DNA from: an uncultured bacterium
GTDB lineage: Bacteria > Krumholzibacteriota > Krumholzibacteriia > LZORAL124-64-63
NCBI GenBank assembly: GCA_903859215.1
Contig: CAIOLW010000368.1
Location: forward strand, 1-51,114
Length of the DNA: 51,114 nucleotides
Direction: 5' to 3'
Each line of letters starts with the position of its first letter. Position 1 is the first letter of the stretch. Below the pieces are notes generated by a model that saw only the letters and a list, made by a program, of their open reading frames with translations, ran no database searches and was not told the origin of the DNA. The translations under genes were made by a program, and so were the position numbers. Positions 265 to 2,875 of this stretch are shown here, one piece after another.

Positions 265-1965
265 ATGATGGTCTCATCGCCCGAGACACGTGACATCGTT
301 ATCGACGAGGAAGCCGCGCAGAGCCGCGCCCGCGTCGCCATTTGCCTCATCTCGTTCCTGGTCTTCACCGGCATCGGGCTCCACCAGGGCCTCGGCCAGA
401 GCGTGACGCTCATCGAGGGCCTGGCCACGATCATCGGCTACCTCGTGTTCTCGACGGCCTGGTACGCGATGGTGCGCCGGCACCCGCAGCGCTGGCCGCG
501 TCGCCGCTACGTGACGCTGCTGGCGGACCTCGGCATCATGACCTTCTTCATGCACCTGGGCGGGGGCAAGGTCGCGTCGTTCTACCCGATCATCCTGTGG
601 GTGATCATCGGCAACGGCATCCGCTTCGGGGAACGCTACCTGAAGGTGGGCATCGTCGCCGGCAGCCTGGGCTTCGGCTCGCTGCTGCTGTTCGACGAAT
701 ACTGGAACACGCACCTGAACGTGGGCGTCGGCCTGTTCATCGGGATCGTCGTGTTGCCCGTGTTCTTCCTGGGCGTGCTGCGGCGCCTGACGCAGGTGTC
801 CGAACTGAAGATCGAGCTGGCGCAGTCGCGCCTGGCGGACAAGGCCAAGGACCAGTTCCTGGCGACCATGAGCCACGAGATCCGCACGCCGATGAACGGC
901 GTCCTGGGCATGGCCGAAACGCTGGCGGCGACCGAACTGGACCCGCAGCAGCGCGAGCACCTGCACATCATCACGCGTTCGGTCGAGTCGCTGCTGAACA
1001 TCATCAACGACATCCTCGACTACTCGAAGATCACCTCCAGCACGCTGGCGCTCGAGTCGGTGCCGGTCGACCTGGAGCAGGTGCTCGGCGACATCCATGC
1101 GCTGCTGCGGACGGCGGCCGACAACCAGGGGATCGAGCTGGTCCTCGACGTCGAACCGTCGGCGCGCGGGCATTACCTGGGCGACCCCACGCGGATCCGC
1201 CAGATCGCGCTCAACCTGGTCGGCAACGCCATCAAGTTCACGCAGCGGGGCGGCGTACGGGTGACCTGCCGCGCCGGCGATTTCGCGGACGGCTGCAACC
1301 TGGAGCTGAAGATCCGCGACAGCGGCATCGGCATCCCCGCCGACCGGCTGGGGGCGATCTTCCGCCAGTTCGAGCAGGCCGACAACTCGACCACGCGGCG
1401 CTACGGCGGCACCGGCCTGGGCCTGGCCATCAGTCGCCAGCTGGCGCGCATGATGGGCGGCGACATCGTCGTCAAGTCTTCCGAGAGCAAGGGTTCGACG
1501 TTCACCGTGCTGCTGAACCTGGCGCGGTGCGAAAAGCCGCCGGTGGCGCCGGTGGTGGAGGCCGGCGAACTGCCCGACTACGGGCTGCGCGCCCTGGTGG
1601 CCGAGGACAACAAGTTCAACCAGGTCGTCGTGCGGAACCTGGCCAGGCGGATCGGCATCGCCGTGGATATCGCCGAGAACGGCGAGGAGGCCGTGCGCAT
1701 GGTCGGCGAGGCCGCGTACGACCTGGTCCTCATGGACATCCGCATGCCGGTGATGAGCGGCTACGAGGCGACGGCGCGGATCCGCGCGCGTGGGGACGCG
1801 ATTGCCCGCATCCCGATCCTGGCGGTGACGGCCGAGGCCACGAAGGCGGACGTGCAGCAGTGCCTGGAGGCGGGGATGGACCTGCACCTGGCCAAGCCGC
1901 TGCGCATCGCGGACGTGGTGGCGGCCATCGACAAGCTCGGGCTGGGAGTCCGGCAGCCGTCCTGA
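265..1965 (+). CDS. rpfC: RpfC-like hybrid sensor histidine kinase (putative DSF receptor)
   Basis: This 566-residue membrane hybrid kinase has an N-terminal hydrophobic region of several TM segments (about 25-175). A HisKA domain follows with H204 in [11 protein letters not shown], then a HATPase domain (N-box asparagine N321, and G boxes DSGIGIP and GTGLGLAIS). A receiver domain carries D491 in [11 protein letters not shown]. The last TM block, with [18 protein letters not shown] and a downstream YW, closely resembles the input domain of Xanthomonas RpfC (WVTIGNGLRYG...YL), the receptor for diffusible signal factor. Unlike classical RpfC, the protein stops after the receiver and has no HPt domain. 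It converges on the rpfF-like gene with 4 nt between the stops, the same tail-to-tail arrangement as in Xanthomonas. The start is ATG at 265 or 268 after a weak GGGG ribosome site. Ligand identity is inferred from homology and context. Confidence 0.82.
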
Positions 1966-1969
1966 GGGC

Positions 1970-2875
1970 TCAGGCCCGGCCTTCCATCTCGGCGGGCGGC
2001 TCCTCGTGGCGCTGCTGCAGCCGGCGGTTCTGCGCCGACACCAGGTGCTCGATCATCCGCAGGTCCCGCTCATTCAGGCGCAGCGCCGTGTCCACCCAGA
2101 TCTTCGTGATGGTGATCAGTTCCTCGTAGGTGACGGGGTTGATCACCTGGCGCACGCGGTTCATCGCGTTGTGCGCGTTGCCCTGCTTCTGGTGCCGGCG
2201 GATGAAGTGCTCGACGGCGTGCTGGCCGCGGCCGTCCTCGACGACCAGGTCGACCAGTCCCAGCTCCTGCATGCGGCGCGCGGTCATCAGTTCGCCGCTC
2301 ATGATGATGCGCTCGGCGACGTCCGGGCTCAGCCGGCGGATGAGGAAGCTGTAGGCGCCCATGCCCGGGATCAGGTTGAACAGCACCTCGGGCAGGCCGA
2401 ACTTCGCGCTCTCCTCGGCGATGACCACGTTGCTCGAGATGGCGGCCTCGAAGCCGCCGCCCAGCGCGTCGCCCTGCACCAGCGTGATGGTCGTCAGCGG
2501 CTGCTCGAAGCTGATGCAGTTGGGGTACAGGACGTCGATGCACGCCTTGGCATAGCGGAACAGGCCCTCGCGGTCGCGCTGGCGGATCATCCCGGCGAAC
2601 AGCTGCAGGTCGCCGCCCAGGTTGAACACGCCCGGCACATCGCTGGCCAGGATCATGTAGCGGATGGGCAGCGATTCGCCGTCGGTGCCGGGGCCGAGGT
2701 TGACCTGCTCCACGTGGTGCTGGAAACGCCGCAGCTCGTCCAGCAGGTCGAGGTTGAAGCACGGCCGCCCGCGCGGCCGCAGGTGGTACCACAGCGCGTG
2801 CAGCTGGGGGTCGAACCTGACCGCCAGTTGCTCGTAGGGGCCCCACAGCCTGGGAAGTCCAAAGGGTTGCTTCAC
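1970..2875 (-). CDS. rpfF: RpfF-like DSF synthase (crotonase-fold enoyl-ACP hydratase/thioesterase)
   Basis: This 301-residue crotonase-family protein would make a cis-2-unsaturated fatty-acid signal from acyl-ACP by dehydration and thioester cleavage. It has the RpfF signature along its length: FNLGGDLQLF, LVQGDALGGGFEAA, FGLPEVLFNLIPGMGAYSF, and the C-terminal ITKIWVDTALRL motif that ordinary enoyl-CoA hydratases lack. The two catalytic glutamates known in Xanthomonas RpfF (E141 and E161) correspond to E143 and E163 here, with the same spacing of 20. The start is GTG at 2875, preceded by GGGAG at a good distance; the frame stays open further upstream but without RpfF-like sequence. The gene converges on the RpfC-like kinase. 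Product chain length cannot be read from the sequence. Confidence 0.87.
   Translation of the reverse strand: MKQPFGLPRLWGPYEQLAVRFDPQLHALWYHLRPRGRPCFNLDLLDELRRFQHHVEQVNLGPGTDGESLPIRYMILASDVPGVFNLGGDLQLFAGMIRQRDREGLFRYAKACIDVLYPNCISFEQPLTTITLVQGDALGGGFEAAISSNVVIAEESAKFGLPEVLFNLIPGMGAYSFLIRRLSPDVAERIIMSGELMTARRMQELGLVDLVVEDGRGQHAVEHFIRRHQKQGNAHNAMNRVRQVINPVTYEELITITKIWVDTALRLNERDLRMIEHLVSAQNRRLQQRHEEPPAEMEGRA

Follow-up and report, generated by a model that had tools for sequence, protein, structure and literature searches.

A predicted RpfF-type fatty-acid signal synthase and a short RpfC-type sensor kinase form a conserved gene pair in a family of Candidatus Krumholzibacteriota

Two convergent genes in a genome of Candidatus Krumholzibacteriota very probably allow their host to make and to sense a fatty-acid cell-to-cell signal. 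We consider it likely, with good confidence, that one family of this phylum uses them as a module for DSF-type autoinduction. The DNA analysed (51,114 nucleotides, hereafter the window) was an entire contig of a MAG of the class Candidatus Krumholzibacteriia (4.33 Mb in 391 contigs, rated 100% complete), and the two nearest matching contigs belonged to lake MAGs (Loclat, La Plata). The pair consisted of a predicted cis-2-unsaturated fatty-acid (DSF) synthase of the RpfF family (positions 1970–2875, reverse strand, 301 aa) and a short variant of an RpfC-type hybrid sensor kinase (265–1965, forward strand, 566 aa). Both open reading frames had been reported at these positions in an earlier note on this sequence, which had also guessed, correctly, that the genome was not proteobacterial. 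Rfam and tRNA scans across the window returned nothing.

NCBIfam and PDB searches, alignment and a tree place the synthase as a member of the RpfF family (PRK08788/NF006452). It scored 373 bits against NF006452 (cut-off 177); six other crotonase-fold matches were found in the genome, each with at most 80 bits. Its best solved relatives were the RpfF proteins 7zq7, 3m6m, 5fus and 6dgn (E 4e-63 to 3e-49), with E = 8.9e-63 for the Xanthomonas RpfF (PDB 3m6m). Ordinary hydratases and crotonases reached 2e-16 at best in the PDB search and were otherwise weaker, so that the protein lay far from ordinary enoyl-CoA hydratases in family and structure searches alike. The score of 256 bits was below the strict NCBI equivalog cut-off for RpfF (NF053515, 550 bits). 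This cut-off is narrow, since accepted RpfF proteins of Burkholderia cenocepacia (188) and Leptospirillum (252) show the same score pattern and their hosts do produce DSF-family acids (PMC4504480, PMC8357829), and missing it is therefore no argument against function. The GTG start lined up with the ATG starts of relatives, and identity to the RpfF of Xanthomonas campestris (Xcc) was approximately 44%. The key residues of Xcc RpfF are the catalytic glutamates E141 and E161 and the active-site glycines G86 and G138 (PMC9040811). Their equivalents E143, E163, G88 and G140 were invariant in 20 of 20 aligned sequences, which bears out the earlier statement that both glutamates are kept (E145 and E165 in a numbering that begins two codons earlier). 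A C-terminal IWVDTA block was present as described, but it was not strictly RpfF-specific, as only its tryptophan was invariant across the family.

The kinase comprised a 5-TM-type input domain (residues 1–187), HisKA (194–258), HATPase_c (306–420) and a receiver domain (444–555), as determined from Pfam domains, a sensor profile, hhalign and an AlphaFold2 model. With Pfam, no significant family was found in the N-terminal 187 residues. The RpfC input-domain pattern that had been read in this region, a motif of 11 residues (positions 598–630, forward strand; kinase residues 112–122), was present and was invariant or near-invariant in two alignments (A2 and A3). Its equivalent in kinases adjoining proteobacterial rpfF, WVxxGNGFR(F/Y)G, was near-invariant. 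An input-domain profile was built solely from the window's own family and run against all open frames of loci fetched by rpfF alone. Because the kinase had no part in the choice of these loci, the search was an independent test of the relationship to RpfC. One kinase was found in 45 of the 71 rpfF loci from outside Krumholzibacteriota (HMM matches 1e-34 to 1e-15), and of the 63 loci with more than 3 kb of downstream sequence, 40 had the kinase directly downstream of rpfF in convergent orientation. The Krumholzibacteriota input domain was aligned by hhalign over 166 columns with kinases beside proteobacterial and delta-group rpfF (probability 99.95%, E = 3.5e-38). The comparison set was made up of kinases beside rpfF in taxa other than Xanthomonas; it included Methylophaga and a Nitrospirota locus, taxa with rpf clusters recognised in the literature (PMC4504480). 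The AlphaFold2 model of the input domain was all helical (pLDDT 91). A fold search of the PDB with this model gave no match at E ≤ 0.001, and the domain thus has no solved relative at that threshold. The transmembrane region was related to RpfC-type input domains by the profile searches, and on this evidence the kinase is assigned to the RpfC sensor-domain family.

A putative signal-docking motif of 10 residues was located near the N-terminus (positions 304–333, forward strand; region of kinase residues 14–23), based on alignments read against published mutagenesis of RpfC. DSF sensing in Xanthomonas RpfC needs R15, D17, S18, E19 and Q22 (PMC5391125). Window residues D14-E15-E16-x-x-Q19 aligned with D17-S18-E19-x-x-Q22 of Xcc RpfC. 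All Krumholzibacteriota partner kinases examined had the pattern (D/N)-E-E-x-x-Q, in which D or N occupied position 17 and E19 and Q22 were kept, Ser18 was replaced by Glu and Arg15 was lost. Proteobacterial partner kinases mostly had RxDSEHEQ; many varied at positions 15 and 18, the latter also being S, T, G, P or K. Alignment A3 had Glu19 in every one of its 35 sequences. The docking site of the Krumholzibacteriota kinases is, by these alignments, recognisably that of RpfC and yet altered, and the replacement of Ser18 and loss of Arg15 mean that the ligand may differ from that of Xcc.

The earlier description of the kinase as RpfC-like holds for its input domain but not for its overall layout, which indicates that it is not a canonical RpfC with an HPt domain. 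Pfam detected no HPt domain in the window kinase, and HPt was absent from all five Krumholzibacteriota kinases scanned and present in all six comparators. The linker of approximately 160–170 residues that spaces the HATPase and receiver domains in the six comparators was likewise absent from the five, and the kinase departs from RpfC at two of the five residues for DSF docking. Since the kinase ends at its receiver domain, the signal would have to continue by a separate HPt protein or another route. A stand-alone HPt of about 130 aa was encoded in the same genome (contig C277, positions 7398–7643); that it serves the window kinase is a guess. No obvious cognate response regulator was found for the kinase. 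An HD-GYP search recovered an RpfG-like protein (REC-HD-GYP; contig C216, positions 208–1284, reverse strand) with 44–49% identity over its full length to RpfG encoded beside proteobacterial rpfC. This candidate looked promising at first and was downgraded after a genome survey and inspection of the neighbouring kinase. In the window's genome and two others (G001, G003), the gene was directly behind another hybrid kinase, and full-length copies occurred only in three genomes of the window's genus and were missing from most RpfF-positive relatives. We therefore did not assign it to the system; it is probably not the partner of the window kinase. The receiver domain of the window kinase was also considered as kin of the Xcc RpfC receiver, and 3m6m chain D matched it no better than many other receivers in the PDB search; an RpfF–receiver autoinhibition is thus not supported.

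The stop codons of the two genes were separated by 4 bases (positions 1966–1969), and no intrinsic terminator-like site was found. The tail-to-tail order noted earlier as Xanthomonas-like is real and matches the convergent rpfGHC and rpfF genes of Xanthomonas (PMC4504480). Of 20 fetched stretches, 19 had the two genes side by side, and the last was cut inside a gene by the contig end. Their order was convergent in 18 relatives as well as in the window, and co-directional in one genome (G015). The synthase was present in 21 of 58 close relatives, all within the window's family. The sensor was detected in 20 of these 21 genomes, the sole miss (G020) being cut by a contig end, and in two of the 37 RpfF-negative genomes, one with the kinase alone (G021) and one cut by a contig end (G027). 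This co-occurrence was significant (Fisher's exact p = 2.5e-12, 58 genomes), although the p-value overstates independence because the genomes are related. In a phylum survey of 80 genomes, the synthase was found in 23 of 38 genomes of the window's family and in none of 42 from other families. Recurrence of the pair in relatives down to 57–58% synthase identity, and in independently chosen proteobacterial loci, places it beyond chance. The wider neighbourhood was conserved in close genera only, and the pair is thus the unit.

Further genes of these neighbourhoods and genomes were recorded. In close genera, rpfF was followed by a gene (window positions 3662–6019, reverse strand) encoding DinB_2, FGE-sulfatase and methyltransferase domains in a single protein, the layout of an ovothiol/ergothioneine sulfoxide synthase (OvoA-like). 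In G021 (contig C12; L194, positions 5876–9596), the kinase without rpfF was followed in the same direction by a gene that resembled an acyl-CoA dehydrogenase by eye. Five genomes of the family each encoded an additional hybrid kinase, an orphan whose input domain was likewise of the RpfC-like kind and which had no adjoining synthase (G002:C89, G032:C527, G011:C16, G009:C59 and G023:C89; L196–L200).

Compared with RpfF and RpfC of Xanthomonas campestris, the window pair has the same synthase family and catalytic residues, an RpfC-type input domain with D-x-E-x-x-Q and a convergent order. It differs by the lack of HPt and linker in the kinase, the change of Ser18 to Glu, the loss of Arg15 and the absence of adjoining rpfG and rpfH. 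The rpfF-rpfC-rpfG cluster of Leptospirillum (Nitrospirota) is likewise a non-proteobacterial DSF system, with an RpfF 46–47% identical to that of the window and the same NCBIfam scores. Unlike the window pair, it is a one-directional cluster with rpfG, and its DSF has been shown chemically, by GC-MS (PMC8357829). The HPt part is encoded separately in L. ferriphilum (PMC8357829). The Nitrospirota locus L112 differs from the window by a full-length RpfC with HPt. Pseudomonas aeruginosa PA1396 is an RpfC-like kinase without HPt that senses DSF and BDSF and signals via an orphan HPt protein (PMC4504480). By description, PA1396/PA1397 thus resembles the window system in its HPt-less kinase and stand-alone HPt, but it is unpaired with rpfF and serves interspecies sensing. 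Burkholderia RpfF/RpfR and plasmid-borne rpfF/EAL pairs share a convergent rpfF and receptor candidate with the window, whereas their partner is a GGDEF/EAL protein with a sensor unrelated to that of the window kinase. The plasmid pairs were observed in Sphingomonas and Methylobacterium (L050, positions 3917–6781; L051, positions 3941–7222), where rpfF and the gene of a membrane EAL protein, GGDEF-EAL from its sequence, were convergent. These EAL proteins were considered as carriers of a window-type sensor and showed no similarity; they are candidates for a different class of DSF receptor. An RpfF-family gene (28.7% identity) was also found on two 99,817-bp Escherichia coli plasmids from the faeces of healthy humans, NZ_CP060058.1 (positions 22262–23065) and NZ_CP060062.1.

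A quick maximum-likelihood tree was made from 97 synthase sequences. It united the 20 Krumholzibacteriota sequences in a single group (SH-aLRT 98), surrounded for the most part by proteobacterial ones, and placed Leptospirillum and an Acidobacteriota MAG elsewhere. The Krumholzibacteriota partner kinases also formed one group in the kinase tree (SH-aLRT 100), and their closest relatives were orphan kinases of this type. Synthase and kinase distances were correlated across 18 Krumholzibacteriota pairs (r = 0.93; 0 of 2000 permutations as high), as expected from joint inheritance. The two genes have long been passed on jointly in this family. On the simplest reading, a single acquisition took place long ago in the ancestor of the family, or the genes have been present since very early, with later loss in some genomes; the root of the tree is uncertain. 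One record among the loci, named Mycobacterium sp. KBS0706 (L129), had an alphaproteobacterial-type rpfF/rpfC locus that grouped with Inquilinus, and its name is probably wrong. Such pairs are otherwise mostly proteobacterial and the genome is split into 391 contigs, which would fit contamination of the MAG with a contig from a proteobacterium. That explanation is scarcely credible: the synthases of 20 independent family genomes form one deep clade with internal divergence of up to 46%, the closest proteobacterial synthases are merely 47–55% identical, and near-identical loci occurred in MAGs of other lakes, one of them in a 154-kb contig (L054). No match to this locus at >90% identity appeared in a proteobacterial genome. 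The depth of the clade and the replicate MAGs led us to reject contamination.

From fold and residues, the RpfF protein would use its two glutamates to make a free cis-2-unsaturated fatty acid from acyl-ACP or acyl-CoA. The acid would leave the cell and, at sufficient concentration, bind to the short N-terminal motif of the neighbouring kinase's input domain, which lies in the membrane. The kinase, judging from its domains, would then autophosphorylate and pass the phosphate to its own receiver domain, and the signal could travel onward to a response regulator via a separate HPt protein, as with P. aeruginosa PA1396, or by another route. RpfF proteins are also thioesterases, releasing ordinary fatty acids. 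This activity leaves room for a housekeeping role, in which the crotonase-fold enzyme would be an acyl-CoA hydratase or thioesterase (for example in membrane fatty-acid repair) and the kinase would monitor membrane fatty acids with no secreted signal. X. oryzae RpfF is reportedly required for membrane integrity (PMC8659556), and the presence of synthase and sensor in just 23 of 38 family genomes marks them as accessory. However, signalling genes rather than housekeeping ones typically show an accessory distribution with constant linkage to a kinase, and the sequence falls firmly among RpfF proteins, with each of the four key residues tested, so that we regard a housekeeping role as improbable. 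Somewhat less remote, though still unlikely, is that the synthase makes a DSF-like acid and the kinase, with its changed docking motif, senses a different acid or several from neighbours, thus listening no less to the community than to its own host. The Glu at position 18 and the loss of Arg15 in every Krumholzibacteriota partner kinase examined, next to an invariant Glu at 19 and Gln at 22, and the orphan kinases with the same kind of sensor in five genomes favour this possibility. On the other hand, position 18 varies in proteobacterial partners too and need not set specificity, and partner kinase and synthase are tightly co-inherited. A further reading, to which we give somewhat under an even chance, is a self-contained variant of DSF signalling particular to Krumholzibacteriota, in which an HPt-less RpfC with a re-shaped docking motif would recognise its own cis-2 acid and signal by way of a free HPt to a non-RpfG regulator.

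DSF signalling has been described almost exclusively in Proteobacteria and Leptospirillum. The earlier proposal that it extends to a deep lineage is supported, but a spread beyond Proteobacteria was partly anticipated by Leptospirillum (PMC8357829). An open-access literature search for the phylum together with quorum sensing or RpfF returned incidental mentions or none, and density signalling in Krumholzibacteriota appears undescribed. The naturally truncated RpfC offers a means to ask what the HPt domain and linker do, and the natural set of receptors with Ser18 changed to Glu bears on how RpfC tells fatty acids apart. If a self-contained variant is true, the pair of RpfF and RpfC-type sensor would form a core of DSF signalling that is mobile and conserved, with a replaceable output side. 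If the proposed DSF-type signalling is true, Krumholzibacteriota of lakes, groundwater and sediment would produce and perceive fatty acids of the class that Proteobacteria use, which would make signalling across phyla testable.
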